Shown in pieces: positions 18,639-37,299 of a stretch of 64,000 nucleotides of DNA. Under the pieces are notes generated by a model, which saw only the letters and a list, made by a program, of their open reading frames with translations, was not told the DNA's origin and made no database searches. This stretch comes from Gammaproteobacteria bacterium (GTDB lineage: Bacteria > Pseudomonadota > Gammaproteobacteria > S012-40): positions 806,001 to 870,000 of the forward strand of contig JAOUMY010000001.1 of assembly GCA_029881255.1 (NCBI GenBank), in the 5' to 3' direction. The translations under genes were made by a program, and so were the position numbers. Position 1 is the first letter of the stretch, and each line of letters starts with the position of its first letter.

Positions 18639-21557
18639 TTAATAGATGTTGATGACGTCGACGGCGGAACGATAAAAACGCATGTTTCCAACAACGACTT
18701 CAATGCTCTGCGTGCCAGGCGTGGGGCCGGTCTCCCACTCTACTGTTGCAGTGCGGGAAGTGGGATCGAGGTCCAGCACGTAACACGTTCCATTTGAGAC
18801 ACGGCACTCGAAATTCAGTTCATCCAGACTGTCCCAACTGACTTGGTACTGCAGGACAGATCCGAAAGAGACATCCTGATAGTCGTCATCGAGAGAAGGG
18901 CGAGCGTTATCATGGATATTTAGCCCCGCATACTGACTGATGTTATAGATGTAATCACGATCAACTGTCAGCGCAATACTGGATTCCGGTGTATTGTAAT
19001 GGCCTGTGACGATGGGAGCACCAGGAGTCGATATATCAAAAATGAATACACCGGCATCTCCGGAAGCTGCGTATAACTCATTTTCATATAACTTGATTTG
19101 TTTGCAGTTAATGGCGACATCCGGTTCTACAACGCCAAGTTGCATGACTTGTTGTGGATTACTGATGTCGAGCATCGCGACACCAAAAGTACCGTTGGCT
19201 ACATAGGCTATGTCGTCGACAATTTCAATATCATAGGCCCAGCCACGAATCTCAGTCGTGCCCATGTATATCGGATTTCTGATGTCGCTTATGTCATATA
19301 TGGAGATACCAGCTTCCAATTCTGCAACGTAAAGATAATTTCCTCGTGTTGCTAAGGCGACAGAGCGACCCGGAGTATCAAATGTTATGGCATCTTCCGG
19401 TGTATCGATTCCGAAAAAAGACACCCCGTAAATATTATTGGCAACTATCACGGTTTGATCCACGATCAGCGCGTCATTCGCTTGTTCTACAGGAAACTGC
19501 GCTAATATCTCAGGATTATCTGGATGTGCGCTGAGGTCATAGACGCTAACACCGCGGTGTTGATTCGAAGCCAGCAAAAAGTCCTGATGAATACGTTGTT
19601 CCAACGTGGAAGACGGTGAAAACTGTGTCCCCGTAATTTGAATATCAAAAACATCACTTGCATCTAAGGTCTGTAGACCTTGATATGAAGATCCAAGATA
19701 GATGTAGTCTCCGGATCTACTGACTGAGAGGAATCGATTGTATCCAACATTTTCATCGATCCATGCTAAATCGCGTTGTTTTGCTAGGTCAAAGTGCTGG
19801 ATGCCGTGTATTTCGTCAAGAAGAACCAGTTGGTTATTGTAAACATCGGCGTCAAGTAAGCGGTGAATGGAGTTATATATTCCAAGCAGTTTGGTGGAAT
19901 AAATCTCACTAATATCGAAAACAAAGGCGCCTTTCAGTGGATTGATGACCAGCGCGTAATCTCCGGATATGCGTAAATAGGTGCCTGGGCTGTAGGCAAC
20001 AGTTTGGCTATAAATAAGATTAAATGCATTGTCATAGATGCTGAATTGCGCGGTATCGAGGACAATTGTGAAATCATTTCGGCCATAAGCGTCGATAATC
20101 CCAACATGCTCGAAAAAAGATAATTGACCTGTGTCGTCGTTTCGTACGGTAAGCCCGTTACCGTCCGTAGTGATAAGCGTTTGGGAATCTTCATGAACAT
20201 AAATGTTTTCATAGCTGCCACTGTTTGGCGTCATATCGCGTATGCTGCTGTCTTCTATATTAATATTGACTAGTCTGTTATCGAAAGTCTTGATTATCAG
20301 CGTGTGACCAATCAGGTTCATTCGGACGGGATCAAGAGATTCAACTTCTATGGATCTATTCAGCACGAATTTGCCAGGTATGGAATGGTCAATGATCTCT
20401 ATACCATCATAGTGTGAAGCGAAAAGCTGGGTATCAGATATCTCAAGATTTTGTATAAAGTGTTGTGTTGCGTACAGCGCAGTAATTTTAGCTGAGTCCG
20501 GTACACTGATGTCCATACTGACAATGCCTAGATCTTCAAGATATACGAATAAAGTATTTTCCCGGCGTCGAACAAGAAGTCCCTTGTAAGGTAAAAGTTG
20601 TAATTGAAAAGGATTGAACTTGGTTGCTGTACTGCTTATAGCAGGCGCTGAATGAACCTCAAGAAGCTCTTCGTTGTCGGCGCCAACACGGTAGAGGCCA
20701 AACGTGAGTGCCCCACTATTGCCGTTGCGGTGTATTAACGCAAGACCATTCTGATTCGACACTATGCTTGCAGGAGAACCGCCAATTTGTTTCCAAACGA
20801 GTTGGCTTTCGCTTGGGTGTAAAGGGCGCAGGGCGAATAATTCACCTCGGATGGATTCATCGACATAGGCTAGCGTAGAGACCAATATTTCGATTTCGTA
20901 CTCGAAACGTTGACCATTTTCATGCCAGCCGGTCACCTTCACCATATCAGTACCGAAAAAGTTGTCTGGTGCACGATAGATCAGCCGTTTATGGCTGGTA
21001 AGGGCAAGTGTTCCAAAGGTCGGTTTGCTTGGCGTTTCGAATTCGACGGTGTAGGGATGGGCGACCAGTGGCGTGATATCAATTGGCCTACCGGGTTCAA
21101 TGCGAATATTTTCAGAGAAGGTAAGTTCCGGAACCGATATCGGGTCGGCTGCAGCCGGACCGCTATCGGTTTTGGCTAGAGTTTCCGGGAGTGAGAGGGT
21201 AATTGTACCGACGCGCCAGTTTCCGTAACGGTCGTTGACAATGTATTCAAAACTGTCCTGATCGGTAAAATTCTGGTCGGCGTGGTAGTTGGCCTTGTCA
21301 GAATGTAAGGCAAGCAAGCCTGTGTCCGGCATACGGCTTATTTTGAATTCCAGACCTTCACCAGAGGACAGTTTTGATAGCTGTATTTGCGCGGCCCCTT
21401 CGTCATCAAGAACGATATTGGCGTTTGCGGCCTGCAGTTGAGTTGTTTGGCCTCCTCCGCAGGCGGTTAACAAGCTGGCAAGCACTGCTGTTGACAAGGC
21501 GGTGCGCGTAAACCTAGCACCGTTTAATGTGATTTCTCTTTCTGGCTTGCTTTTCAT
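18639..21557 (-). CDS. large LVIVD-repeat beta-propeller lipoprotein
   Basis: 972 residues. Lipoprotein signal with Cys33 in LLTACGGG after an N-terminal region that is rather long (about 32 residues). Residues ~40-130 contain a cadherin-like or Ig-like segment (QDSFEYIVNDRYGN). From ~240 to ~890 there are many degenerate repeats of the LVIVD type (YVAELEAGISIYDISDIRNP, YVANGTFGVAMLDISNP, YAASGDAGVFIFDISTPG), which form beta-propellers. The C-terminal ~90 residues are a small beta domain. Likely a surface-exposed scaffold of unknown partner. Confidence 0.85.
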   Translation of the reverse strand: MKSKPEREITLNGARFTRTALSTAVLASLLTACGGGQTTQLQAANANIVLDDEGAAQIQLSKLSSGEGLEFKISRMPDTGLLALHSDKANYHADQNFTDQDSFEYIVNDRYGNWRVGTITLSLPETLAKTDSGPAAADPISVPELTFSENIRIEPGRPIDITPLVAHPYTVEFETPSKPTFGTLALTSHKRLIYRAPDNFFGTDMVKVTGWHENGQRFEYEIEILVSTLAYVDESIRGELFALRPLHPSESQLVWKQIGGSPASIVSNQNGLALIHRNGNSGALTFGLYRVGADNEELLEVHSAPAISSTATKFNPFQLQLLPYKGLLVRRRENTLFVYLEDLGIVSMDISVPDSAKITALYATQHFIQNLEISDTQLFASHYDGIEIIDHSIPGKFVLNRSIEVESLDPVRMNLIGHTLIIKTFDNRLVNINIEDSSIRDMTPNSGSYENIYVHEDSQTLITTDGNGLTVRNDDTGQLSFFEHVGIIDAYGRNDFTIVLDTAQFSIYDNAFNLIYSQTVAYSPGTYLRISGDYALVINPLKGAFVFDISEIYSTKLLGIYNSIHRLLDADVYNNQLVLLDEIHGIQHFDLAKQRDLAWIDENVGYNRFLSVSRSGDYIYLGSSYQGLQTLDASDVFDIQITGTQFSPSSTLEQRIHQDFLLASNQHRGVSVYDLSAHPDNPEILAQFPVEQANDALIVDQTVIVANNIYGVSFFGIDTPEDAITFDTPGRSVALATRGNYLYVAELEAGISIYDISDIRNPIYMGTTEIRGWAYDIEIVDDIAYVANGTFGVAMLDISNPQQVMQLGVVEPDVAINCKQIKLYENELYAASGDAGVFIFDISTPGAPIVTGHYNTPESSIALTVDRDYIYNISQYAGLNIHDNARPSLDDDYQDVSFGSVLQYQVSWDSLDELNFECRVSNGTCYVLDLDPTSRTATVEWETGPTPGTQSIEVVVGNMRFYRSAVDVINIY

Positions 21558-23452: not shown

Positions 23453-24100
23453 TCAGAATTTTTTGTGTAGAGATAGGCCAGGAATCAACGTTAGGTTCTC
23501 GGTATTTATAAAATCAGAAAAATCGTTTGATTTAGTATAGATAGCCAGTTCCGGAATGATGCTTATCCCACTTTGGACGGGAAACTGGTAGTTAATGAGC
23601 ATTCCCGTTACGTATTCAGTTCTAAGTTGTGTATATATATCGCCATTTTGTTGAACGATAAATCGCGGAATGAAGCTGAGTAATCTTCCTGAGGGCATTG
23701 GGATGGTATGGTAGTAAGAAAAATACCAGTCTTTTTTTAGCGGCAGGTTTTGTGTTGGTAGGCTTTTTACGCCAATACCCAATTCAATCGCGGATATAAA
23801 TTTTCGGTTTTCCTGAGGAAGTGTATATTTTGCGTTGAGCACAGGACCACGAAGTAATTTGGCTTCAATGTCTAGAAAATCTGTTATTCCTAGGCGAGTC
23901 ATGAATTCAAGTTCGACGACAGGTTTGGCGTCAGTAATGCCACGATCGAGTATGCCGCCTTGTATGCCTATCCCCGTTTCTTGCGAGCCTGCGGGCAATG
24001 AGAGCGCAGAGTTTCCGCTGCTAAAACTCGCGCAGCCGCTGACGAGAATCAGAAAAAGGACTGAAAGTCGTTCTATAGTTTTTATTCTGTTTCGTAACAT
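23453..24100 (-). CDS. predicted envelope lipoprotein, barrel-like
   Basis: 215 residues with a lipoprotein signal (LVSGC, Cys23). Alternating strands and a terminal Phe (LHKKF) suggest a small outer-membrane barrel or beta-sandwich; no family recognised. It starts 21 bases after the stop of the enolase-superfamily gene on the same strand, so it is probably the last gene of that operon. Its role there is not known; export or surface anchoring is only a guess. Confidence 0.68.
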   Translation of the reverse strand: MLRNRIKTIERLSVLFLILVSGCASFSSGNSALSLPAGSQETGIGIQGGILDRGITDAKPVVELEFMTRLGITDFLDIEAKLLRGPVLNAKYTLPQENRKFISAIELGIGVKSLPTQNLPLKKDWYFSYYHTIPMPSGRLLSFIPRFIVQQNGDIYTQLRTEYVTGMLINYQFPVQSGISIIPELAIYTKSNDFSDFINTENLTLIPGLSLHKKF

Positions 24101-24121
24101 GGTTCACCTGATTGCCAAATC

Positions 24122-25225
24122 CTAAGGGTGCGCCCCAGTATAATTACCTAAACCAAAACTGTCGCCAATATTCTCGTGGGTAACAAGCAAACCATTTTTA
24201 CCGAAACGTAAGGGCTTCGATATAATGTCCTCTGTGAGCAGGTAATCGCTGAAGCCTCCTTCCATCGCTACCACTAAATCAGGCGCCTGGCTCGCCAACG
24301 ACATAGCAGCGCGAGTTAGCAAACTGGTTTCTCCTACGTGGCTTCCGATTACAACAGGTAGGCCCATTTTTTGTGCGTTCCCAAGCATCTCATAAGAGCG
24401 TATAAGTCCACCCAACTTAGAAATACGTAGATTAGGTATCCACTGGTCTTCAAATCTTTCGAAATGCCGGAAATCGTCGGAACGTAGAAGGCATTCATCC
24501 AGAATAATTTTGCAGTTCACCCCAGTAGAAAACTTTTTAAGTTGTTTGAAGTCGCGGGCTCTTAGAGGTTCTTCGATAGCGAAAAGGTGCTCATGTAATG
24601 TCTCAAAATAATTTAGTGCAATCGCGGGCGTGCTGAAGTAATTATTTGCGTCGACGCGAACTCTGGCAGTTGGAAGTTTTTCCTTTATGGTTTTGATGCG
24701 AACCTGATCCAAGCCGATATCACCTGAAAGTTTTATTTTAAAATCCATAAAACCCAATTTTTGGTATTGCCCCAAAGTTGCCAGAAATGCCTTGTCGCTA
24801 CCTGTGCCCAATACAGCGCTGTACTGAAATTGCGGAATTAGCTGTCGAAAACCGAGTAATTCTTCAACGGATAAGTTGTTTTCTTTGCATAGTGCATCAG
24901 TTAGTGCGAGTTCAATGGCGCACCAGGCAGCAGGATATCTGTTTATGAATTGTTGATGTGTATCTGCCCACTCGACTAACAGACTTGCGCTCCACTTTTG
25001 TTGAAAAATGTAATGAGAGATCTCTTTTATCTTTTTAACGGTACTGTCCAAGCGTTCCTGTGTAACATAAGGTCGTGGACATGATTCGCCATATCCACGG
25101 ACACCGTTTTCTGTCTCTACGACGACGAGTACGCTTTCTGATACAGCCCGGTTTGCTGACGCATGGCTGAAACCGTAACGAAAAGGTATCCGCAGAGGCC
25201 TCGCGTTTAAGAAACAAATTCTCAT
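24122..25225 (-). CDS. enolase-superfamily enzyme, MLE subgroup (dipeptide epimerase-like)
   Basis: 367 residues. Catalytic layout of the muconate-lactonising subgroup is complete: Lys pair K163-x-K165 (FKIKLSG), metal ligands D192 (VRVDAN), E218 (AIEEP) and D243 (ILDEC), and the opposite-face base K270 (ISKLGG). This subgroup contains dipeptide epimerases, o-succinylbenzoate synthases and racemases. The eighth-strand DxDG typical of Ala-Glu epimerases is replaced by MEGG (321-324), so a different substrate is likely. The ATG overlaps the stop of the fusion gene (ATGA), meaning coupled translation and probably a shared pathway. Confidence 0.88.
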   Translation of the reverse strand: MRICFLNARPLRIPFRYGFSHASANRAVSESVLVVVETENGVRGYGESCPRPYVTQERLDSTVKKIKEISHYIFQQKWSASLLVEWADTHQQFINRYPAAWCAIELALTDALCKENNLSVEELLGFRQLIPQFQYSAVLGTGSDKAFLATLGQYQKLGFMDFKIKLSGDIGLDQVRIKTIKEKLPTARVRVDANNYFSTPAIALNYFETLHEHLFAIEEPLRARDFKQLKKFSTGVNCKIILDECLLRSDDFRHFERFEDQWIPNLRISKLGGLIRSYEMLGNAQKMGLPVVIGSHVGETSLLTRAAMSLASQAPDLVVAMEGGFSDYLLTEDIISKPLRFGKNGLLVTHENIGDSFGLGNYTGAHP

Positions 25226-27795
25226 GCTACCATCCCCTCTTGTTGCAATACTTCTTCTGGAAACTCGGATTGATACCAAAGTATGCGAGGTTTGTACTGA
25301 CCTTCACGCTGTCCATGATCTACCGCATAGCGCTTAAGTCTGTCCTGCAAGCCGGGAGGAGCGACACTGATTTCCAAAGGCTCAAGACGCTTGCTATATC
25401 GCTTGGATTTGTACTCAATATTGTAATTGCATAGCAGCCGATCGATTTGCGTTGCGAGTTGCGAATAATCTGGTACATATTGACTTAAGCCATCAATGAA
25501 AAGTCGATATTTGGCCTGAGCAACGTCGGCTATCATTACATATGATGGTAGGAGCACCTGGCTCTCTTGCTGAACTCTCGTCACAGCACTGATGACCTGA
25601 TGTTCATATAGTTTTTCGCCACTAATATTGGTAATTCCCTGTCCTTTTTGAACGAAGTTGAAAAGCGGTGTGTTCTTGTATTTTCCACAAACGCGCACGA
25701 TATCGTTCATACAGTAACGATACAAGCCATTGCCAGTGGTTACGAATATGTAATATTCAGTTTGGTTTTTTAATTCGTGCAGCATCTCAAACAGATGCTG
25801 ACCGTTTTCCCAGTTATGCTTTTCTACGAACTCAAAAAACACATGTTGAAGGTTTGGCATGCCTTCGCTCTGCGAGTTTAGCGGGAATGTAATGCGAGAC
25901 TCGCTCGAGATAAGCCCGAGATCAAGTATTTGCGTATTACTTGGCAACACCTTTTTGAGTGCAGAAAGTGCTGTTCCACAACTTCCGCCGGTCCAGGTGT
26001 TTACCAGTTGTAGATTTGGCCAGATGTTGTGTATATGGCATTCTCCGCTTTGTAATTGAGTAATGACGTGTTTCCGTCTGATCTGTGTTTGCTTGCATCG
26101 TTCAGAAAATCGTCGGCAGACGACTGCTGGCACGTCTGGATGAGCATATAGTTTTCCCTGCTGTAGCACCTCAAGCAGAATATGTTTACGCTCATCTAGC
26201 AGTCGATCAATGCTTACCAATGAACTGGGATTTGCTGCTGCCAGATAGGTTACGTGTCTTTCAAGGAGCCCAAAGCACAAGATGACCAGATAACGTAGCT
26301 CGTAGTCTGCGATTTGATTAATTTCTTCCGGAATTAACATATTCTTCCGCAGAGTGGGTGGTGTAAGTCGTCCAATTAGTCCTGACACAGCGCCATAAGG
26401 GATGCCGTGAGAGGTATGTCCCTCTATCTCTGGGCTGGTAATGGCGAGTATTTTTCCGAAAAACGCCTGGGGGAATTGACGGAAAACGTTCAATCCAAAC
26501 AGCGTTTGCTCCTTTTGTAAACGCTTAAGTTGGTCGTAATCTATTGGTAGATACTTAGGTTTGTCTGTCGAGCCGCTGGTGACAGCATAGTATAGAGGCG
26601 GCTTGCTGGTGATGGCAGGCAAGTTCTTATCAACTTGCAATTGGTACCAGTCACGCAGGTGTTCGTAATTATTTACAGGAATCTGTTCCTGAAATTGCTG
26701 GTAATCGTGGATTTTGGAAAATCCGTGTTGCTTCCCGTAAAGCGTATTCGCCTGTTCGTGAAGAATTCGTTTCAAAACTCTTTTTTGTACGCGAGCAGGG
26801 CAGGCGCTTTGCAATAAAATACCAGACCAGTTTCGTAGCCAGGCAATGCTTGCACCGAGATGTAGCAGGCTAAAGCGAATGGTTTTCATACATGAAAGCA
26901 CCGGCACTTGATATTGTTCTATGCCCGGAATGAAGGGTGTTTTCATTTGAGTGATGAATCCGCTCGGATATTGGCGGTTGACGAGGCCAATATCTCCTAT
27001 GACTGTATCTTTTGGGCAATAGTATGTGCCAAATAGTCGATCCCATATGATGAGATTGTTGCCAAAATTGTTGTCGGACTGTTGTTTATCTATGCTGTGA
27101 TGCCAACGATGAAGCTCTGAGGTGCTGACAAAATAATTTAGCCACCCGAATTTGAGCTTGATATTGGCGTGTTGAAAAAAGCCATTTGTCGCATAGATGA
27201 CGTAGTAGAGCGATAAGACAAGAATGTCGACACCCAACAGCATAAATGGCAAGGTGTCCAGGCTCAACTGCATCAGTTTTTCGAGTGGGTGAAAGCGGGA
27301 TGTATTAAGCCAGTACATTTTTTTTGGCGAATGATGTACAGCGTGTAGTCTCCACAGAGGTCTCCAGGTATGTGCAAGCCGATGTAGCCAGTAGCGCAGA
27401 AAATCAGCGAGCAGAAATACCATTAAAAGCTGGGCGCCGGTGGATAACTCATGAGGCCAGAATTTATGAATTTGTGGAAAACTGCTCGTAATTGGCTGGT
27501 ATGTGGCAAAGACAAATGACAGGACGACTAGCTTGGGCAGCAACATTTGCACGATGATTAAAAAAAGGCTGTCATTTATCCAGTCTTTTCGTCTAGGTTG
27601 CCAATGCTGACGATGTGGCTGTATGTGTTCCAAAATGATGATTCCGAAAACGGCCACCGCAATCGCAGAATAGCTTGCCACTTCGATAGGAAAGTGGCCT
27701 TTCATCATTAGAAATATTGCTACGCCTGATACCATCAGGGTCGGATAGCTCGACCATGCCAGTATTTGCGTCATAAATTTGTTCATATTGTTCAC
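25222..27795 (-). CDS. membrane fatty-acid hydroxylase / GH3 acyl-amide synthetase fusion
   Basis: 857-residue two-module protein. Residues 1-~285: integral-membrane fatty acid hydroxylase/sterol desaturase module with several hydrophobic segments (about 12-31, 39-58, 77-99, 121-136, 178-207) and di-iron histidine boxes H138RLAH142, H151AVHH155 and H229RWHH233. Residues ~320-857: GH3 adenylating module with nucleotide loop TSGSTDKPKYLP (406-417), LISSES (628-633) and YRYCMNDIVRV (692-702). GH3 enzymes activate carboxylates with ATP and join them to amino acids; bacterial substrates are unknown. The ATG overlaps the stop of the upstream membrane-protein gene (ATGA). The single frame has no internal stop, so the fusion is real in this sequence. 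Confidence 0.9.
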   Translation of the reverse strand: MNNMNKFMTQILAWSSYPTLMVSGVAIFLMMKGHFPIEVASYSAIAVAVFGIIILEHIQPHRQHWQPRRKDWINDSLFLIIVQMLLPKLVVLSFVFATYQPITSSFPQIHKFWPHELSTGAQLLMVFLLADFLRYWLHRLAHTWRPLWRLHAVHHSPKKMYWLNTSRFHPLEKLMQLSLDTLPFMLLGVDILVLSLYYVIYATNGFFQHANIKLKFGWLNYFVSTSELHRWHHSIDKQQSDNNFGNNLIIWDRLFGTYYCPKDTVIGDIGLVNRQYPSGFITQMKTPFIPGIEQYQVPVLSCMKTIRFSLLHLGASIAWLRNWSGILLQSACPARVQKRVLKRILHEQANTLYGKQHGFSKIHDYQQFQEQIPVNNYEHLRDWYQLQVDKNLPAITSKPPLYYAVTSGSTDKPKYLPIDYDQLKRLQKEQTLFGLNVFRQFPQAFFGKILAITSPEIEGHTSHGIPYGAVSGLIGRLTPPTLRKNMLIPEEINQIADYELRYLVILCFGLLERHVTYLAAANPSSLVSIDRLLDERKHILLEVLQQGKLYAHPDVPAVVCRRFSERCKQTQIRRKHVITQLQSGECHIHNIWPNLQLVNTWTGGSCGTALSALKKVLPSNTQILDLGLISSESRITFPLNSQSEGMPNLQHVFFEFVEKHNWENGQHLFEMLHELKNQTEYYIFVTTGNGLYRYCMNDIVRVCGKYKNTPLFNFVQKGQGITNISGEKLYEHQVISAVTRVQQESQVLLPSYVMIADVAQAKYRLFIDGLSQYVPDYSQLATQIDRLLCNYNIEYKSKRYSKRLEPLEISVAPPGLQDRLKRYAVDHGQREGQYKPRILWYQSEFPEEVLQQEGMVA

Positions 27796-28220
27796 CCCTT
27801 TGTATTCTTTTTTTGTTTCAAGATGTTGGCTATTAGTAGTACGTACGCAGCGAGTACGAAATGAAAAATGGTCGAGAGCGTATTAGAAAACCAGCGACTC
27901 TCTTCAAATAGAGTCTGACCAAATATCAGACGCAGTATCATCACCAGCACGTATAGCAAGCCGAGTCGCCACAACCATTTCCCCCAAAATGGATTGACGG
28001 ATATTCGGTTGTAGCGGGCGCGAAAGCTGTAACGCAACATGGCGAAAAGAATGAGAATCTGAAAAGTCAGTAATAAAAAATATGGCATCGTGCCGCTGTG
28101 CCAGGCTTCAAAAGGGGGCAGCGTAGGAAGGCTGATATGAAGCGAGGCAAACTGAGCAGCGACACGAAAACCAAAACACAGGGTCAGCAGAAACAAAAGA
28201 GGCGCGGTTCTTGTTGCCAT
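27792..28220 (-). CDS. four-helix membrane protein, first gene of the GH3 operon
   Basis: 142 residues from the ATG at 28220, eight bases after AGGAG. Four hydrophobic stretches (about 7-23, 45-62, 82-98, 113-132) and basic loops; the C-terminus is KKNTKG. No family recognised. Its stop overlaps the start of the hydroxylase-GH3 gene, so it is very likely made with it and may help it in the membrane, for example as an electron-transfer or substrate-handling partner; no cofactor motif is visible. Confidence 0.75.
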   Translation of the reverse strand: MATRTAPLLFLLTLCFGFRVAAQFASLHISLPTLPPFEAWHSGTMPYFLLLTFQILILFAMLRYSFRARYNRISVNPFWGKWLWRLGLLYVLVMILRLIFGQTLFEESRWFSNTLSTIFHFVLAAYVLLIANILKQKKNTKG

Positions 28221-28322
28221 TTTTGGACTCCTTTTCCTGTTAAACAATTTGTTATTGTTGTTTCCTCGGTATTCTGGCAAAGGTGTAGATATTTGCAACA
28301 ATGATGTGTAAAGTAGCTAATG

Positions 28323-28341
28323 TATCGTCTATAAGTATCGT
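28323..28341. promoter_or_regulatory. possible operator: TATCGT direct repeat upstream of the regulator gene
   Basis: TATCGT occurs at 28323-28328 and 28336-28341, 13 bases start to start, in the divergent gap between the XRE regulator and the GH3 operon. The same gap holds an 11-bp palindrome AACAATTTGTT (28243-28253). Such repeats suit an autoregulatory operator, but nothing beyond position and symmetry supports it. Confidence 0.25.
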
Positions 28342-28354
28342 ATATTGCTACCTT

Positions 28355-29086
28355 ATGTCGCAGCCTACACTATTGATCTCGGCGCTAAAGAAAGTGTTGA
28401 AAAATCAGGGGGTCCGTTATCGAGATCTGGCGGAGGTCCTGGGTTTGAGCGAGGCGAGTATCAAGCGCATGTTCTCTGAGGGGAATCTGTCTATTCGACG
28501 CCTGGGAGAGGTATGTGCCTATCTCGGGGTGAATTTTACTGATCTGGCCAATATCATGGATCAGGAAGAGCGCCGTACCGACAGGCTTAACGAGCAACAG
28601 GAATATGAGCTAGTCGCAGACATCAAGCTGTTGTTGATGGCGTTCCTGGTAATCAACGGATTCCACTTTGGTGAAATACAACGTTATTACCGATATACAG
28701 ATGCGGAAACGATCCGTTATCTCGCCCATCTGGATCGGATTGGTATCATCGACCTTTTTCCGAATAATCGAATTCGTCTGAAGATCTCGCCCAAATTTAC
28801 CTGGCGTCGCGATGGGCCGATTCAGAAGTTCTTTACGCAGCGATTACAACCTGATTTTCTGGCAAGCCAATTTCTCAACGAGGGTGAGAGTCATTTCTTC
28901 CTCACGGCAATGCTGAGCCCGGAATCGGCAAAAGAGTTGGAAAAGCGCATCCATGATCTGGTTATTGATTTTCAACTTCGAAACCAGCAAGACGGTCTAC
29001 TGCCTCTAGAGCAACGTACGATTTATAGCATGCTATTGGGGATGCGTTCCTGGCATCCTAGTGCATTTGAAGAATTACGTTTGTGA
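28355..29086 (+). CDS. XRE-family transcriptional regulator
   Basis: 243 residues from the ATG at 28355. Residues ~8-65 form a helix-turn-helix of the XRE type (YRDLAEVLGLSEASIKRMFS, LGEVCAYLGVNFTDLANIM). The remainder (~75-243) is an alpha-helical effector region that I do not recognise (HFGEIQRYYRYTDAETIRYL, a second winged-helix-like stretch). It is divergent from the GH3 operon with only 134 bases between, so local regulation of that operon is plausible. Confidence 0.85.
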   Translation: MSQPTLLISALKKVLKNQGVRYRDLAEVLGLSEASIKRMFSEGNLSIRRLGEVCAYLGVNFTDLANIMDQEERRTDRLNEQQEYELVADIKLLLMAFLVINGFHFGEIQRYYRYTDAETIRYLAHLDRIGIIDLFPNNRIRLKISPKFTWRRDGPIQKFFTQRLQPDFLASQFLNEGESHFFLTAMLSPESAKELEKRIHDLVIDFQLRNQQDGLLPLEQRTIYSMLLGMRSWHPSAFEELRL

Positions 29087-29123: not shown

Positions 29124-30428
29124 TTAATGTTTGATCCGAGGCCAATAGGTATCAAATTTGAAATCAGGGCTATGTTTTTGAATGTGGCATTGCTGACACA
29201 TTTGTTCAGGTTTCCATCCTTTGTTGGCGACCGGCTTTGCTCCGCCACTATCCGCGTGCGCTTTGGCGGCACCATGGCAATTTTCACATTGCACATTCGC
29301 GAGGTCTTTTGTCAGCATGTAATCCAGATAACCGCCTTCTTTTTCAAAACCCACGGTATGACAGCCGATGCAGTTGGGGTCAAATGATTTGCCTACGTCC
29401 ATTAACTTGAAAAATGCCTCAGCGTGCGGCGATTCGAACCATTTTTCATGTTCCTTCGCATGACAGGACTCACACACCTTTTCGCCGGCGTACGGACTTT
29501 GTCCTGTGGTCATGGCCTTGCGCGCAGCGACACGTGCTTCGTATTCCTCGCGAACCTTATCATTATAAGCCTTGTACCAGGCTTCCATACGCGGGGCGTC
29601 GCCTACATCAACCGGTAAAGCTATTACTTTGTGAATGTAGTTCTCGATATTGCCTTGTTCATTGATTTGCAAATCAAGTTTACCTAGGCGCATACCTCGA
29701 GAACCGGGTTGTAAGACAAGTGTATTGCCCTTCTTTATGGGTTCATTAATGATTTCATATGCGGCTTCGATCACCAGAATATCGATATTGTCTAGTGGAA
29801 AGAGCTTTTCTGCTGAATCCAAAGGCAGAGTTGTGGATAGTATTGTGATGTGCTTTTTCGCTTTTGCCTGTTTTAATTGTTGTGCAATGTCAGTCGTATC
29901 GTGCGAAACCGGGTTATCTCCCATCATGCCTTTGCTTTTTTCGCTATTGGGGTCGATCCAGTTAAAAATTTCTACAATTTGTTTACCCCGTTCGACTGCG
30001 ACCGATTTCTGCAAGCTCTCGTTTTCCCAGTTACTTGCTATAAAAGTGTTAAAGGTTTCCTTTAGAAATGGCAAGCCGTAGGCAAGGTCTTGCCATTGTA
30101 CCCCTATTGCATCGTAATTTAGCTCTTCGAGTCCGGAGAGTATGAATTGACTTTTAAGCTTGTCCTGTGGCATCTCGCTGACGAGCAAGCCGCCACTCGA
30201 GAATAAAATGAGGTCTGGCTGCTCCTTGCGAAGCTCATCGACCTTTTTGACGCGCCGCTTTATTCCGCCCTTGTCACCACCTTCGCTACAGCCGCAAGGC
30301 TCCAGTTCACCATCTAGATTTCCCGAATAGATCAAAGTGATGTTTTGAGATGACGCAAGGACAGTGGTTAAAGGTAAAGATATGTAAAGGATTACTAGTA
30401 GCGAAATCTTGAGAAATTTGTAGTTCAT
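29124..30428 (-). CDS. secreted tetraheme cytochrome c with phosphoesterase-like N-terminal domain
   Basis: 434 residues with a signal peptide (cleavage near residue 25). Residues ~28-275 resemble the UshA/5'-nucleotidase fold group that starts GNLDGELEPCGC, with GGIKRR, but the usual metal-binding Asp/His motifs are not visible. Residues ~315-434 form a cytochrome c554-like domain with four CxxCH heme sites at 319-323, 353-357, 381-385 and 411-415. It should be periplasmic and heme-loaded, and may serve electron transfer to or from a sulfur, nitrogen or oxygen compound; the partner is unknown. Confidence 0.85.
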   Translation of the reverse strand: MNYKFLKISLLVILYISLPLTTVLASSQNITLIYSGNLDGELEPCGCSEGGDKGGIKRRVKKVDELRKEQPDLILFSSGGLLVSEMPQDKLKSQFILSGLEELNYDAIGVQWQDLAYGLPFLKETFNTFIASNWENESLQKSVAVERGKQIVEIFNWIDPNSEKSKGMMGDNPVSHDTTDIAQQLKQAKAKKHITILSTTLPLDSAEKLFPLDNIDILVIEAAYEIINEPIKKGNTLVLQPGSRGMRLGKLDLQINEQGNIENYIHKVIALPVDVGDAPRMEAWYKAYNDKVREEYEARVAARKAMTTGQSPYAGEKVCESCHAKEHEKWFESPHAEAFFKLMDVGKSFDPNCIGCHTVGFEKEGGYLDYMLTKDLANVQCENCHGAAKAHADSGGAKPVANKGWKPEQMCQQCHIQKHSPDFKFDTYWPRIKH

Positions 30429-30605
30429 TTAGTATCAACCGTGAGTTTGTTCACCAAAAGTCTCTATAAAAATTAATCTTCGAATCATATGTCATGTATA
30501 TATGAGTGTCATGTCTTTATTTAAGTTCTGTAGTTGAAAAAGACATGGCTGTTGTCAGTTTGCAGCCTCTCAAATAAGGAAAACGATAATCTACACGGAG
30601 GGAAT

Positions 30606-32783
30606 ATGGCGAATTCATATCAGCGCATTTCTGCGCTTGCTTCAATTATTGTAATGCTTGGGCTAGGAGGCTGCTTCCATGAAGGTATTTTTGCGTGGCA
30701 GTCTTCTGAAGTATCAGATGAATCGGTAGGCGATTCTGCTCATAATCATGATGCAAGCATGACACATGCTATGCACGAAGAGATGTACCCCGATCCTGTA
30801 TTGGTTGATGAGAAAATTCTAAATAGCCTGTATAACGGCGAATTGCTTGATCATAGTTTGCAAAGCGTAAATAGCTGCACAGATTTAAAGCAAAATTTGG
30901 TTGCAAACTGGCTGGGAAAAGATATGGATGGTCACTCACTGGTTATGGTTGAACCAAATTATCTGCCTCCACCAATTCCATTTATGTATTCTCCCTATCG
31001 TTTGCCTGGATTTAATGACTTAATAGTTGATAATCAGACGCTTTTCTTTATGTACGAAAACACCCTGCACGTCGTGAGTGTGTCGGACGATGGCGCTATG
31101 AATCGCGTGAATAAGCTGCCTCTGGATTTTCTTTCATCTGGGCTGACCTTGCAGTCTGCCAATACACTGATTGTCGCAGGCCATCGCCTGGAGAGTGGTA
31201 GCATAATCAGCGGACAGGTATTCGCGATTATTGATATTGGCGAAGGTTCGGCACCTACTGAAAGACATCGTATTGTTGTCGCCGAGGGTAATGTGAACTT
31301 GACTAATGTGGATGCAAATAGCATGTCGATGTCTTATAGATCAGAGATTCGCTTGCCTCGCTCCTTGTTGGAAGATCAGCAATTTAGAGAAATAACGGAA
31401 AACTATCGGGATGCTGCGCGTCTTAATGAGCTATATCAATATGCCATAGACAATACTGAAGGCGACCCGGCGTCAGAGCTTGTCGAATTTCAAGCGGGTA
31501 CGCAGGCCTTGCTTGATGCATATGAGATAATGTTTAACAATAAATTCGATGAGCATGTCGAAAGCATCAGTGAATTGCTCCCGTCTTTTACCTTGGTCAA
31601 AGGCCAAGAAAGCACGTCTATCAGACCCCTATCTTGTGACAATCTACTGACTTCTGAAGATGATGATGGGTTTAGCATATCTGGTTTTCTGGATTTGGAA
31701 AACGTCAATGGTGGTTTGCTGCGTTCTGTTGCACTATTAGGCCAATATGAGTTTGTATCCTTATCCAATGACTATCTGTTGTTGCTTTCTCAGCGTCACC
31801 CAGGCTACATGAATGAGTCGAGCTATCCATCAACACTTCTGGTGCAGCTGAAAGTTGAGGATGACAAGTATGAACTGGTTTCCGCCAAATCCATTGCCGG
31901 TCAAATCTTGATGGAAAACATTAAACTGAAGGATGGCTTGGCCTATTTGTTTTCTCAGCAACATTCGTTCAATTTCAATAGCGCATATCCTGATGTTGGT
32001 ATGAGTAATTTCTTTGTTTTGTCAATTGATGAAAACGGATTGAATAAAGTGAGCGAATTGCCTCATGTTATATCGCAAATGTGGAACGTTCCACATCATG
32101 AAGCAGTGTTTTTGGACAAAGGGGTGGTTGTCTTTAATCGAGAGCACAACAGACGTGTCCTGGTGAACTATGTAGATCCCAATAATCCCTACGTTTCGGA
32201 GCAGGCTATGGAAAATACGCTGCACTCGTGGGTCGTAATCGATGACTCTCGTCTAGTAGTTCTTCTACAGAATCGTCAGTATGGAACTGGATCACTCATG
32301 CAACTGTGGCAAGTTTCTGGAGCTGTAGATGTTTTAGATACTCTGCATTTCGCTCAGGACATCAGCTTGGGCATGGACAGAGATGCGAAGGTAGCGCAGC
32401 TTGGTGATAAGCAGGTATTAGGGTTACGAATGAGCTATCCGCAAGTAAATGCAGACAGATCGCATTATGAAGGTCGATTACGTTTTATTGAAATTTCTGC
32501 CGCCGATACATTGGCCGATCTTGGCGAGGTGCGTATGAGCACCGTAAGGTCGAACTTTGCTTCATGTATTGGACACGCAGCACATGATGGGGTCGCGATG
32601 CAAACTGCACCTCCTCCTTATTACAAGGAGATGTGTTACATGGATGGTATGAGCATGATTAATTTTGATGGGGCTGTGAACACAGACGGCGCCTCCTATC
32701 TGGTAAGTCACCTCGACAATACTATTCAGTTAAACGAGTTTGGTGCACTTTCTCGTCAAACCAATTTGACTATTATCGAGTAG
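30606..32783 (+). CDS. secreted beta-propeller lipoprotein
   Basis: 725 residues from the ATG at 30606, which follows ACGGAGGGAAT, a strong ribosome site. Lipoprotein signal LGLGGCFHEG (Cys23). The body has the pattern of secreted C-terminal beta-propeller proteins (GGLLRSVALLGQYEFVSLSN, YLLLLSQRH, RLVVLLQNRQYGTG), with His-rich short segments near the N-terminus (SAHNHDASMTHAMHEEM, about residues 43-60) that could bind metal. Function unknown. It is flanked by the subtilase on the other strand. Confidence 0.72.
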   Translation: MANSYQRISALASIIVMLGLGGCFHEGIFAWQSSEVSDESVGDSAHNHDASMTHAMHEEMYPDPVLVDEKILNSLYNGELLDHSLQSVNSCTDLKQNLVANWLGKDMDGHSLVMVEPNYLPPPIPFMYSPYRLPGFNDLIVDNQTLFFMYENTLHVVSVSDDGAMNRVNKLPLDFLSSGLTLQSANTLIVAGHRLESGSIISGQVFAIIDIGEGSAPTERHRIVVAEGNVNLTNVDANSMSMSYRSEIRLPRSLLEDQQFREITENYRDAARLNELYQYAIDNTEGDPASELVEFQAGTQALLDAYEIMFNNKFDEHVESISELLPSFTLVKGQESTSIRPLSCDNLLTSEDDDGFSISGFLDLENVNGGLLRSVALLGQYEFVSLSNDYLLLLSQRHPGYMNESSYPSTLLVQLKVEDDKYELVSAKSIAGQILMENIKLKDGLAYLFSQQHSFNFNSAYPDVGMSNFFVLSIDENGLNKVSELPHVISQMWNVPHHEAVFLDKGVVVFNREHNRRVLVNYVDPNNPYVSEQAMENTLHSWVVIDDSRLVVLLQNRQYGTGSLMQLWQVSGAVDVLDTLHFAQDISLGMDRDAKVAQLGDKQVLGLRMSYPQVNADRSHYEGRLRFIEISAADTLADLGEVRMSTVRSNFASCIGHAAHDGVAMQTAPPPYYKEMCYMDGMSMINFDGAVNTDGASYLVSHLDNTIQLNEFGALSRQTNLTIIE

Positions 32784-32838: not shown

Positions 32839-35800
32839 CTATAGCGTAGTAAAACTCCAGACCTCACTAGTAGACGATAAACCCTGAGTGTCTGTTGCTG
32901 TTACTTTCCAATAATAAGTCGTCTGTGCTTGCAGATTGAGTTCAATCTGTTCCATCGTGCCATTAGCGCCAGGTAGCGGAATGTTAGTTCCACAAGCCGT
33001 CATCAAGAGAGACGCAGCAATGAGCACGACTGCTTGCAGATAACGTTGTCGACGAGTGGAATTTCCCATCAAGCCGAACATCGCAAGCCCGATACCAGCA
33101 CCGCCGCCCAAGCCTGCAATAGTTGCTACAGATCCAAATCTAAGTTGGGCGAGTTGTGTTCCACAGTTGGTGAAATCTGCATTTTCACAATACTCGAGTA
33201 GGTAGCTCACTTCGTCGCCATCCGGGTCGACGACAGCGTTCCATACAAATGTGACCAGACTCGGGTGTATGTTATTGCTGCCATTTGTTGGTGATACCAG
33301 GGTTGGCGTCTCAGGAGCCTGATTTTGCGGCGCCGGATCTTGCGGTATTGGATTCTGAGGCGTGGGATCAGCAACAACCGCATCATCGTCCGTGATGGTG
33401 ATGTTAACTGATGAGGTGCCTATGCTTGCCCCGCCCGTTGCACCTGTTAGGCCAATAGATAGAATTTCAATATTTTCAACAATTGTATCGTCGACAATTG
33501 GTATGTTGAATGTTTTGGTCGCACTATCTCCATGCGCCCAATTTATAACACCAGAGGTAGATACATAGTCTTCCCCTGCCAGCGCAGAATTGTCGACGGT
33601 AGCATAGACCACGCTGATTGCACCATCGCTACCACCACTGCGTGTAACAGAAACAGTTGCACTCAGGCTATTTTCTGCAACCGACACTGAGCCTTCGGCA
33701 ATAGATATCACGCCCGGGACGGCGGTGTCATTGTCGATAATGGTAACAGTTGTCGTGCTACTACCTATGGTTGCACCGCCGGTGGCTGATGTTAAAGCGA
33801 TGCTGAATGTTTCACTGCCTTCGTAGATGATATCGTCAGTGATATTAACGACGACGAACTTGCTTGCAGCATCGGTATTCGACCAGTTTAAGGTGCCACT
33901 CACGGAGGTGTAGTCGGAACCAGTACTTGCGCTTCCATTTGCGCTGGTATAGTTGACTCCTACTGCTCCATCGCTACCACCACTGCGTGTGACTTCGATA
34001 GTCACTGCAATACCGTCCTCATTGACACTATAGCTGCTCGCGGCGAATGAAAGCGTACCGAAGACAGGTATATCGTCATCAATGATAGATAGTGTCGCAC
34101 TGCCACCAGAGATAGTGGCTCCCCCAGTAACATTGCTTAACGACAGTGAGATGTCTTCGCTTCCTTCGATGGCGCTATCATTTGTGATGGCAACGGAAAT
34201 GGTTTTATTTGCGCTATCGCCGTCTGCCCAGGACAGTGTGCTATTTGTTGATGTGTAGTCACTACCAGCGATTGCAGTCGAGTCGGCAGTGCTGAAATCA
34301 ACCGAAATAGCCCCGTCACTTCCACCAGTACGTGACACTATAATAGTCGCTGTCGCACCATTTTCATTGACGCTGTATGAGCTGTTTGCAAAAGCAATAG
34401 AGCCCGGTACCGGCGTATCATCATCAATGATAGATAAAGTAGCATTGCCGCCGGTGAGTATTGCTCCACCGGTTGGATTGAACAGAATCAGACTGACGGT
34501 TTCAGTTGCTTCTTGTAGCGCATCGTTCGTCAAATTGACCGTAAACGATTTGTCTGCAAGGTCACCATTGCCCCAGGATAATGTACCGCTCGCGTAAGCG
34601 TAGTCTGCCGGTGATGAGGCACTGCCATCGGCCGTGGCGTAAGAAATACCCACCACGCCACCACTACCGTCGGTACGCGAAACGGTAATAGTCGCAGTGA
34701 CACTGTTTTCAGCAGCAGAGTAGTTGATCGAACTGAACGCCAGTTTTCCTGCTGGTTCCCCAGCAGTCACACTGATGTTCACAGTGTCGCTTGCGCTTTG
34801 GCCGGAATCATCCGTTACTGTGAGTTTAAACGTCAGCGTCTCGGTTGTATTTGGCGCATAGAAAGACGGCGTTAGAGTATTTGCATTGTTAATTAGCACG
34901 GTAGTACCGGCTGTTTGAGTCCAGCTATAACTTAGTGTGCCGCCGTCCGGGTCCGATGCAGTTCCTGAAAGGTTAACTAATGCATTCCCTAGGACGTTTT
35001 GGTCAGTACCTGCGTTGACTGTCGGTGCGCCGGTATCCAATGTCCATATCCAGGCCTTGCCTGTAGCGATGTCTGGGTTAACTACATTAAAGTTTTGGGT
35101 TGTCGCGCGGGTATAGTCGACTTGAACACCGATAGTTGCGGAGTCGCCATTATTGTCTGTGGCAATATAGTGGACTTCAATATTCGGTGTGTTGACGGGT
35201 AGCACGACTTGCATTTGCACGAGGTTGCCTGTTGAAACACTTTTTCCTCTCCATTCCATTACAACTTCCTTGAAAGTGTAATTGAAGTTGGCGGGGTCGA
35301 CATAGGTCTCAAATAATCTAAACCCGTAACCAGCCTGGCTAATATCCAGGTCATCCCAATATGGCGCTATTACATGCTCGAATACGTCTGTAGGAAGAGG
35401 TGTGTTTGCGCCAGTCATTTGTCCGGCCGATGGCGCGCCAAACATTGCTACGCCCTTCGGCAATAAGTAAAGCGTAGACGTATTCACACCACCAAACGGG
35501 AGTTGATAGTCGGCACTATAGCCGGGAAAAGAAATATAGGTGCTACTGTTAATCGGATTGTAAGACGACCCAAAGAAATCCGTTCGAGGCGCATAGGTAA
35601 TAGCAACCGGTGCTCGATAGGCAATTCGAGAACTGTTGTTGGCGATGACGGTGACCGATTGAGTCTGTCCATTGCCAAAGCTAAGTGTGTAAGTTCCTGC
35701 GGTAGCCGGTGCCGTCCAATAGGCTGAATAAATTCCATCGTCTGCGGCTTCATCAAAACCAAGACCGTCATCTTGTAGTGTAAGGTTTGCGACGGTGCTG

Positions 35801-37299
35801 GGGCCAGTGGTTGTAACGGTGATACTTCCTGCAGGCGCCGCGCAGTTGATGTTCACTACGGCGAGTCCAAGCTTTTGTCCGGATATTTTTGATGAAGTTG
35901 TCGTTTGCGGATAGACGACGGCATTGACGCTCTGATTGTTACAAGTCAATGCACCAGTTCCATTGTTGTCCCATGCGCGAACGCGTCGACCGGTTACCGT
36001 GGTCCCGTTCAAAGTGGCGATCTCAGTTCCGCTGCTGATAATAAGATTTTTTACGGTTCTCCAATCACGCGTAGGATCTTCAGCAAATAAGAATCCAGCT
36101 AGTCCTGCAACATGCGGTGCAGCCATAGATGTGCCATTTAGGTGTGTATAGCCGCTTCCGGTGACGGTGCTATAGATATTGGTTCCAGGTGCGCCGACAT
36201 GAACTGAGCGCACGCCGTAATTAGAAAAGGAAGCACGATTGTCGTTTTGATCAGTCGCCTCAACGGAAATGAGATTGGCAGCGAAGTAGTTAGATGGATA
36301 GTGTGGACCATTGTCATTATTGTTGTTCGAATTGCCCGCAGCGGCGATGAATAAAATGCCCGCCTGACGGTGCTTCGCAATTGCTGCAGCCACAGCCTGG
36401 CTACCACCGCCGGTGCCGCCCCAAGAATTGTTGGTGACAACGACATTGATACCCCGCATTTTTAAATCATAAATATAGTCGAGACATTTTAGTGCGTTGG
36501 AGTCGCTACCGCTTCCATTTGAAGCGAGAAACTTACACGCGAGTATTTTCGCCTGTTGGTTGATACCAGTGATGCCCGTGGAGTTGTTTCCAACGGCGGC
36601 AATTGTGCCTGCGACATGTGTACCATGATTATTGTCATCCATGGGATTACCGCTATTGGTGATAGCGTTGATTCCGTAGATGTCATCAACATAGCCGTTG
36701 CCATCATCGTCAACGCCTGCGGAACCGCCAATCTCTCCAGGGTTTACCCACATATTGGCGGCGAGATCTGGATGATTGTATTGCACACCGGTATCGATAA
36801 CACCGATGACGATACTGTTGCTTCCGGTTGTGCCGCTGTTTGACCAGGCCTCGACGATATTCATATCCGCGTCAGCGGTGCCGGTAAAACCGTTTACGTT
36901 TTGTCCTGTGTTATGCAGTCCCCACAACTGGTTAAACGAAGTGTCATTGGTGGCATCGATTCCGACAATTGAATCGGGCTCGGCGAAAAGTACGTTGGGA
37001 TTCTTCTTGTAGTGTTCGATGGCGGCTTGCACATCCTGGCCGGGAGGAAGTCTGAACATTTTGAGACCATCAAAATTTCTGTAACCGTGTTCAGCAACTG
37101 GCCTGCTAGGGCCATGAGACGCGTTAACAGCTGCTGCACTGGCGCCTGGTTTGAATTGCACCAGTATTTGATCAGGGGCCTGCTTGACTTCTGTGACGCC
37201 AAATTTTTGGGGTGCGGCCAATGCGTGAGTTCCCCAAACTATAGAAGTAGCTACAAGAACAGATGTCAGCAGATGTACATTCGGCTTTGTCAGTTTCAT
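32839..37299 (-). CDS. secreted subtilisin-family peptidase with Calx-beta repeats
   Basis: 1486 residues. Signal peptide (residues 1-28), inhibitor-like propeptide (ILVQFKPG at 45-52), then an S8 catalytic domain with Asp169 (VIDTG), His225 (NHGTHVAG), oxyanion Asn323 (AAAGNS) and Ser391 (GTSMAAPHV). Downstream: a beta domain, a PKD/K-type Ig segment (SGTASDPDGGTLSYSW), four Calx-beta repeats (each ending SIIDDD, TIIDND or TITDDD; about residues 870-1310), and a C-terminal Fn3-like domain. That last domain is split by a glycine-rich hydrophobic stretch and a lipobox-like LLMTAC (Cys1436). Likely a large extracellular or surface protease. Confidence 0.93.
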   Translation of the reverse strand: MKLTKPNVHLLTSVLVATSIVWGTHALAAPQKFGVTEVKQAPDQILVQFKPGASAAAVNASHGPSRPVAEHGYRNFDGLKMFRLPPGQDVQAAIEHYKKNPNVLFAEPDSIVGIDATNDTSFNQLWGLHNTGQNVNGFTGTADADMNIVEAWSNSGTTGSNSIVIGVIDTGVQYNHPDLAANMWVNPGEIGGSAGVDDDGNGYVDDIYGINAITNSGNPMDDNNHGTHVAGTIAAVGNNSTGITGINQQAKILACKFLASNGSGSDSNALKCLDYIYDLKMRGINVVVTNNSWGGTGGGSQAVAAAIAKHRQAGILFIAAAGNSNNNNDNGPHYPSNYFAANLISVEATDQNDNRASFSNYGVRSVHVGAPGTNIYSTVTGSGYTHLNGTSMAAPHVAGLAGFLFAEDPTRDWRTVKNLIISSGTEIATLNGTTVTGRRVRAWDNNGTGALTCNNQSVNAVVYPQTTTSSKISGQKLGLAVVNINCAAPAGSITVTTTGPSTVANLTLQDDGLGFDEAADDGIYSAYWTAPATAGTYTLSFGNGQTQSVTVIANNSSRIAYRAPVAITYAPRTDFFGSSYNPINSSTYISFPGYSADYQLPFGGVNTSTLYLLPKGVAMFGAPSAGQMTGANTPLPTDVFEHVIAPYWDDLDISQAGYGFRLFETYVDPANFNYTFKEVVMEWRGKSVSTGNLVQMQVVLPVNTPNIEVHYIATDNNGDSATIGVQVDYTRATTQNFNVVNPDIATGKAWIWTLDTGAPTVNAGTDQNVLGNALVNLSGTASDPDGGTLSYSWTQTAGTTVLINNANTLTPSFYAPNTTETLTFKLTVTDDSGQSASDTVNISVTAGEPAGKLAFSSINYSAAENSVTATITVSRTDGSGGVVGISYATADGSASSPADYAYASGTLSWGNGDLADKSFTVNLTNDALQEATETVSLILFNPTGGAILTGGNATLSIIDDDTPVPGSIAFANSSYSVNENGATATIIVSRTGGSDGAISVDFSTADSTAIAGSDYTSTNSTLSWADGDSANKTISVAITNDSAIEGSEDISLSLSNVTGGATISGGSATLSIIDDDIPVFGTLSFAASSYSVNEDGIAVTIEVTRSGGSDGAVGVNYTSANGSASTGSDYTSVSGTLNWSNTDAASKFVVVNITDDIIYEGSETFSIALTSATGGATIGSSTTTVTIIDNDTAVPGVISIAEGSVSVAENSLSATVSVTRSGGSDGAISVVYATVDNSALAGEDYVSTSGVINWAHGDSATKTFNIPIVDDTIVENIEILSIGLTGATGGASIGTSSVNITITDDDAVVADPTPQNPIPQDPAPQNQAPETPTLVSPTNGSNNIHPSLVTFVWNAVVDPDGDEVSYLLEYCENADFTNCGTQLAQLRFGSVATIAGLGGGAGIGLAMFGLMGNSTRRQRYLQAVVLIAASLLMTACGTNIPLPGANGTMEQIELNLQAQTTYYWKVTATDTQGLSSTSEVWSFTTL
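33590..34750. repeat. four near-identical Calx-beta coding repeats
   Basis: The DNA encoding the four Calx-beta modules repeats about every 310-320 bases, with recurring words such as TCATCAATGATAGATA. They diverge in sequence and stay in frame, so they are duplicated protein domains, not a mobile or CRISPR repeat. Confidence 0.8.

Follow-up and report, generated by a model that had tools for sequence, protein, structure and literature searches.

A conserved cassette of GH3 ligase, enolase-superfamily, hydroxylase and membrane-protein genes in 12 bacterial phyla, with a possible role in N-acyl amino acid lipid synthesis

Among the closest described relatives of the gene cluster reported here is the OlsH/OlsI/OlsG ornithine-lipid operon of Singulisphaera acidiphila, in which the bacterial GH3 enzyme OlsH joins free fatty acid to ornithine with ATP, giving N-acyl ornithine, with a preference for ornithine over lysine and arginine, and the alpha/beta-hydrolase OlsI performs the second acylation (PMC12493201, 2025). 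Replacement of S115 of OlsH by alanine abolishes activity, and the authors consider other substrates probable for many bacterial GH3s (PMC12493201). OlsE is reported to hydroxylate ornithine at C4, going by the title of Hoelzl 2018 as cited in PMC12493201, and two lysines are employed by N-succinylamino acid racemases (PMC8142540). Here we describe a cassette found on the minus strand of a 64,000-nucleotide stretch of a gammaproteobacterial genome (contig JAOUMY010000001.1, positions 806,001 to 870,000; hereafter the window), in which a GH3 ligase is fused to an OlsE-like hydroxylase and lies between the genes for a four-transmembrane (4-TM) protein and an enolase-superfamily enzyme of the MLE subgroup.

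The cassette resembles the OlsH/OlsI/OlsG operon in its GH3-type ligase, which we propose uses ATP to couple a free fatty acid to an amino acid, giving an N-acyl amino acid, in the membrane-lipid product proposed and, at some loci, in an alpha/beta-hydrolase-fold partner. It differs in adding the enolase-superfamily enzyme, a di-iron hydroxylase and the 4-TM protein, and its hydrolase belongs to the CocE/NonD (S15) family and is mostly absent. The cassette hydroxylases share the fatty-acid-hydroxylase superfamily and the full histidine set with OlsE but are fused to, or lie directly before, the GH3. With N-succinyl-Arg/Lys racemase (2p88/2p8b) and other N-succinylamino acid racemases the cassette enolase shares the MLE fold, the catalytic lysines and a proposed N-acyl amino acid substrate; the neighbourhood and acyl group differ. 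The chemistry is of known kinds, and the combination, the enolase clade and the 4-TM family appear undescribed; in open-licence papers we found no description of GH3, enolase-superfamily enzyme and hydroxylase together.

The 4-TM gene (27792..28220, minus strand; 142 aa, no known family) comes first, with a strong Shine-Dalgarno-like GGAG before its ATG. The 857-aa fusion gene follows on the same strand (27795-25222), with an N-terminal integral-membrane domain of the di-iron fatty-acid-hydroxylase superfamily (26911..27795; FA_hydroxylase, residues 124-257) and a C-terminal GH3 ATP-dependent acyl-amide ligase (25222..26910; GH3 N, M and C domains, residues 329-839), and then the 367-aa enolase-superfamily enzyme, a proposed N-acyl amino acid epimerase (24122..25225, minus strand; MR_MLE_N, PF02746, and MR_MLE_C, PF13378). 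A small lipoprotein gene (23453..24100, minus strand; 215 aa, N-terminal lipobox VSGC) is separated from it by 21 bases (24121-24101). A sequence-only reading had claimed this order of 4-TM, fusion, enolase and lipoprotein genes and the 21-base gap, both of which we confirmed. It had also claimed two ATGA overlaps: the fusion/enolase junction (25225-25222) does read ATGA, but the 4-TM/fusion junction (27795-27792) reads GTGA, the GTG start of the fusion lying over the TGA stop. A plain ATG at 27786, 9 bases further on, is an alternative fusion start that would result in a short gap. Because promoter and terminator scans of the locus gave site numbers no higher than in shuffles, they do not set the borders of the operon. 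The G+C content of the enolase and fusion genes (0.44-0.45, against 0.47 for the window) is not telling for a foreign origin.

Distribution and linkage of the cassette

A scan of 84,980 species with an alignment of three gammaproteobacterial cassette enolases returned 51 loci (one of them, L070, being the same place as G313) that come from at least 12 phyla, those named being Pseudomonadota, Nitrospirota, Nitrospinota, Acidobacteriota, Bacteroidota, Gemmatimonadota, Verrucomicrobiota, Planctomycetota, Armatimonadota, Myxococcota, Poribacteria and Latescibacterota. Most of the loci are metagenome-assembled and individual phylum assignments could be wrong; the cassette of Nitrospira defluvii (L081) is not metagenome-assembled and lies on the complete chromosome FP929003. 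Close to the source organism the cassette is sparse. None of the 12 further genomes sampled from its family has the cassette enolase, and among 369 gammaproteobacterial genomes two others have an orthologue at about 40% identity. One of these carries 4-TM, hydroxylase-GH3 fusion and enolase genes in the order of the window, and the second has hydroxylase and GH3 as separate, overlapping genes followed by the enolase.

Linkage was counted without a 30% identical outlier (L089) and two loci cut by contig ends (L053, L085). A GH3 gene lies directly upstream of the enolase at 48/48 testable loci, a hydroxylase directly upstream of the GH3 at 44/44 loci long enough to show it, and a 4-TM homologue is found at 35 of the 48. 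The genes mostly touch or overlap, and about one quarter of the loci have the hydroxylase-GH3 fusion. Four loci fuse the 4-TM protein to the hydroxylase (L064, L075, L083, L087), the L064 fusion including the GH3 as well, and in L084 the 4-TM gene stands beside the hydroxylase but on the opposite strand.

The genes also co-occur. A cassette-GH3 profile scored above 680 bits in three of the 369 gammaproteobacterial genomes, the three that carry the cassette enolase, and the next best score was 235. Among 246 Nitrospirota genomes, eight contain an enolase above 525 bits, and a GH3 scores above 620 in exactly these eight; a ninth enolase, close to a contig end, is fragmentary. Pairwise distances of enolase, GH3, hydroxylase and 4-TM protein correlate (r 0.75-0.86), a result unmatched in 2000 permutations. 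Given this same-genome co-occurrence and these correlated distances, the cassette is a conserved unit of four genes that travel together. The sequence-only reading had named the locus the best candidate for an undescribed system in the window, and an undescribed, conserved system is supported here. It had also asked whether the neighbourhood is kept outside close relatives; it is kept far beyond them, and its recurrence in 12 phyla exceeds chance.

The patchy spread of the cassette points to horizontal transfer across lineages. A query of viral contigs with the window enolase gave no match, such a query reaching close relatives only, and on plasmids only other enolases were found, at most 28% identical among the matches listed. 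Genes that recur next to the cassette in Nitrospira (clusters C3, C4, C8-C10, C12) were taken as lineage synteny and not as functional partners.

Some loci had further features. Reading-frame breaks, from either sequencing error or decay, affect the GH3, enolase or CocE hydrolase of cassettes L090, L088 and G508:C16. In two gammaproteobacteria the gene immediately upstream of the cassette is of the phytanoyl-CoA dioxygenase family (PF05721; L065:6448-7314, L067:6411-7313), and the Poribacteria locus L047 has a related gene about 6 kb downstream.

Enzymes of the cassette and a proposed pathway

The GH3 domains (PF03321, PF23571, PF23572) score over their Pfam cut-offs and place the protein among the GH3 amide ligases. 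T111-S112-G113, K119, E337, G395-L396-x-R398-Y399 and D403 are invariant in 43/43 cassette GH3s, the three nucleotide-binding motifs are intact, and S112 corresponds, by motif alignment, to S115, which OlsH needs for activity. OlsH (NF052613) is the only NCBIfam family common to all 43, but the window GH3 reaches 99.7 bits against a cut-off of 620, about one sixth, and thus falls outside it. The hydroxylase domain matches PF04116 over cut-off (E 2e-31) and, with the two-iron histidine motifs invariant in 43/43 sequences (H138/H142, H151/H154/H155, H169, H209, H229/H232/H233), belongs to the fatty acid hydroxylase superfamily. OlsE (NF052566) is both the best NCBIfam model of the window hydroxylase (175 bits, cut-off 475) and the only family matching all 43. 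The reaction classes of ligase and hydroxylase can fairly be inferred from these assignments; the matches to OlsH and OlsE lie too far under cut-off to indicate exact substrates.

All 49 cassette enolases keep K163, K165, D192, E218, D243 and K270, the catalytic residues that the sequence-only reading had placed at these positions, and the KxK of strand 2, three acidic metal ligands and strand-6 lysine assign the protein to the MLE subgroup. The same reading had noted MEGG in place of the DxDG of Ala-Glu epimerases, and this motif (321-324) is the local form of a cassette consensus, A-Q-E-G-A-F, with E322 and G323 invariant. E322-G323-[AG]-F replaces D-L-D of the dipeptide-epimerase references that span the region. 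The DxD motif of dipeptide epimerases binds the ammonium group of the dipeptide, so its loss accords better with an N-acyl substrate than with a dipeptide. A wider signature is present in 49/49 cassette enolases (H21, R26, R51, W101, E219, R267, S269, E322-G323) and is not, or rarely, found in reference enzymes: H21, R26 and R51 sit in capping-domain loops, S269 precedes the catalytic K270, E219 is Q in nearly all other enolases compared, and R267 is K in others.

The window enolase reaches no NCBIfam cut-off. Its closest solved relatives by profile are N-succinyl-Arg/Lys racemase (2p88, 168 bits) and a dipeptide epimerase (3jva, 167 bits). The former is 23% identical and lacks H21, R51, W101, E219 and R267, with aspartate at the position of R51; L-Ala-D/L-Glu and other dipeptide epimerases share the MLE fold and a similar profile score but form a separate clade, and the window protein has no DxD at strand 8 and scores below the dipeptide-epimerase cut-offs. 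In a tree with few characterised references, for which Protein Data Bank (PDB) sequences were entered as aligned stretches only, the 49 cassette enolases form one clade (100/97), joined by the L089 enolase as sister and then by 2p88 (98/73), the nearest characterised neighbour. The AlphaFold2 model (predicted local distance difference test, pLDDT, 92) matches MLE-subgroup structures, including 2p88, at Z about 42; since cycloisomerases, N-succinyl-Arg/Lys racemase and dipeptide epimerases are tied or nearly so, the fold does not choose among them. Many Nitrospirota genomes carry another, distinct enolase-superfamily gene (95-131 bits), and the five examined (L106-L110) carry LDLD, the dipeptide-epimerase motif.

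The 30% identical sister enolase (L089:6692-8756) keeps H21, R26, R51, Y53, W101 and the EG motif. Its locus has no GH3; the gene follows one for a lipid A-type acyltransferase (PF03279), and a FadL-like gene comes after it on the opposite strand, a context once more of acyl lipids.

The 4-TM protein has R19, Q23, W40, Y47, Q54, Y90, R97 and H120 as invariant polar residues among 32 sequences, and the two Arg, two Gln, Tyr and His in or near its helices suggest a binding site for a charged lipid. Its AlphaFold2 model (pLDDT 91.8) found no significant match in a PDB fold search. A hit to the EXPERA/sigma-2 receptor fold (7m93; Z 4.9, 132 residues, root-mean-square deviation 5.4) was at the level of a common helical arrangement and was not trusted. 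Outside the cassette, a 4-TM gene occurs beside an apparent flavin adenine dinucleotide (FAD) oxidase and an apparent flavin monooxygenase (L124:2413-5621, G274), and another directly after a GH3 of another clade (L123:1-1058, G335). Because of its neighbours in L124, the 4-TM protein may be a general substrate-presenting module.

Ten other loci add a CocE/NonD hydrolase, which is absent from most cassettes. It is a separate gene after the enolase in L041, L047, L058 and L062, and in six loci the C-terminal part of the 4-TM protein (L049, L063, L065, L067, L080 and, in two frames, L088). Its Ser, Asp and His catalytic motifs are invariant in the cassette copies. The N-termini, a lipobox (L058, L062), a signal-anchor helix (L041, L047) or otherwise the 4-TM part plus a fifth helix, predict an extracytoplasmic location. 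By analogy with OlsI, the alpha/beta-hydrolase that adds the second acyl group in the OlsH pathway, it may transfer acyl groups; in the window no alpha/beta-hydrolase adjoins the cassette, and the hydrolase of the ten loci is not shown to be OlsI.

We judge the chances to be evenly balanced that the cassette is a mobile biosynthetic unit for an N-acylated amino acid lipid (lipoamino acid). The GH3 would adenylate a free fatty acid with ATP and transfer the acyl group to the alpha-amine of an amino acid. As one of its carbons would carry both the N-acyl group and a free carboxylate, the product would resemble the substrates of N-acyl racemases, and for this reason we propose it as the enolase substrate: its carboxylate would be bound on Mg2+ via D192, E218 and D243, and the alpha-carbon inverted by proton transfer between K165 of the KxK and K270. 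The OlsE-like di-iron domain would then act at the membrane and hydroxylate either the head group or the chain of the product, with the 4-TM protein holding or presenting the lipidic substrate to the membrane enzymes, and in some lineages the hydrolase would cleave or transacylate the exported product. The parts are tied together by hydroxylase-GH3, 4-TM-hydroxylase, 4-TM-hydroxylase-GH3 and 4-TM-CocE fusions. Kinship with OlsE, OlsH and 2p88 suggests that the amino acid is ornithine or has some other basic side chain. A system that would conjugate an acid to an amino compound and then act at the alpha-carbon, as the sequence-only reading had it, is supported; epimerisation, one of the two outcomes it named, keeps the standing of a proposal.

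Four points weigh against this pathway. Each reaction, the order of ligation, inversion and hydroxylation, the amino acid and its D configuration are our inference, and the three enzymes all fall far short of named-family cut-offs, so homology is a weak guide to substrates. The invariant R26 and R51, in the capping-domain loops that select the substrate, could favour an acidic side chain, in conflict with the basic one suggested by homology. Stereochemical inversion would be only one possible outcome, since the same lysines serve cycloisomerases and o-succinylbenzoate synthase. The role of the 4-TM protein is a guess.

Alternative readings of the cassette

The strongest competitor, which we still regard as unlikely, makes the enolase a dehydratase or cycloisomerase: the hydroxylase would oxidise an N-acyl amino acid at the beta or gamma position, and the enolase would use the alpha proton to eliminate water, giving a dehydroamino acid lipid, or to close a ring. 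The hydroxylase is always part of the cassette, muconate cycloisomerase and o-succinylbenzoate synthase, both of the MLE subgroup, work with the same lysine pair, and cis-3-hydroxyproline dehydratase and muconate cycloisomerase models match 49/49 cassette enolases, though below cut-off for the window protein. The closest solved relatives by profile are racemases and epimerases, however, and the cited title on OlsE places its hydroxylation at ornithine C4, not at the beta carbon.

It is less probable still that the acid is terpenoid, aromatic or carotenoid-derived, in which case the product would be no membrane lipid but a secreted signal or a specialised metabolite. Plant GH3 enzymes, the only solved relatives of the cassette GH3, conjugate jasmonate, indoleacetate and benzoates, and the patchy cassette behaves as an accessory trait. 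Against this, the hydroxylase is closest to OlsE, and neighbour clustering found no further shared biosynthetic gene recurring next to the cassette across phyla.

Of similarly low probability, if anything a shade lower, is D/L interconversion of an amino acid by transient acylation, in which the GH3 would N-acylate one enantiomer, the enolase racemise the N-acyl amino acid and the hydrolase free the other enantiomer. The N-succinylamino acid racemase pathway pairs an N-acylating enzyme with an MLE-subgroup racemase, which counts in its favour, and we observed a dipeptide-epimerase-like gene adjoining DUF1611, the family of the acylating enzyme of the DgcN/DgcA pair. That catabolic pair is a precedent for D-Glu, again an N-acylating enzyme with an MLE-subgroup N-acyl amino acid racemase (PMC10845958), but it uses another acylating enzyme, and the cassette enolase scores 82 bits against the DgcA cut-off of 400. 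The CocE/NonD hydrolase of 10 cassettes, with its invariant Ser, Asp and His motifs, could supply the last step. It is missing from most cassettes, however, no S15 hydrolase over cut-off occurs in the source genome, its N-terminus where present predicts an extracytoplasmic location, and the membrane hydroxylase and 4-TM protein would be superfluous.

The idea that the enolase is MenC, the o-succinylbenzoate synthase of menaquinone synthesis and the housekeeping identity that the sequence-only reading had named as fatal to its case, was rejected as scarcely credible: TIGR01928 (menC_lowGC_arch) is the top NCBIfam model, but at 90.3 bits against a cut-off of 200.65, the tree sets the enolase apart from three MenC proteins, the source genome has no MenB over the curated cut-off, and the constant neighbour is a GH3 and not men genes.

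Neighbouring genes and significance

The lipoprotein that follows the enolase in the window was rejected as a component of the system, as a homologue occurs at no other cassette locus. It has no Pfam family and a weak paralogue elsewhere in the same genome, is probably located in the outer membrane, and is a possible operon passenger outside the conserved cassette; it is unrelated to the hydrolase that holds this position elsewhere. The suggestion of export to the envelope therefore loses the lipoprotein, which is not conserved with the cassette, and is left with an envelope step suggested at other loci by the hydrolase predicted to be extracytoplasmic. A divergent XRE-type helix-turn-helix regulator (28301..29086, plus strand; HTH_26, HTH_3), whose true start is perhaps near 28355, is a candidate operon regulator, and at a single further cassette locus, L055, a 51% identical homologue is the divergent neighbour of the 4-TM gene.

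Further genes of the window include 29124-30428, which joins a UshA-like/SoxB-like N-terminal region to a cytochrome c554-type multihaem region (UshA-like (seleno)protein model, 220 bits, cut-off 275), and a 1486-residue subtilase with four Calx-beta and PKD-like domains (32839-37299). Near the cassette are a 972-residue protein with a lipobox, LVIVD repeats and Big_9 (18639-21557) and a 749-residue protein with a lipobox-like N-terminus and no Pfam family (30534-32783).

Our most far-reaching proposal, held tentatively and on balance doubtful, is that a hydroxylated N-acyl D-amino acid would be a new class of lipid, membrane or secreted, in bacteria, made with the first epimerase of lipid biosynthesis in the enolase superfamily and spread horizontally over a dozen phyla, a cultured nitrite oxidiser among them. 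The cassette is present in Nitrospira defluvii and in other nitrifier lineages, and the signature residues make it possible to search any genome for the cassette. A bacterial GH3 was linked to amino-lipid synthesis in 2025; through the cassette, one GH3 clade has constant partner enzymes and hence a pathway that can be tested. Should the enolase epimerise the acylated product, D-configured amino-acid lipids would exist and an uncharacterised enolase clade would gain a function.

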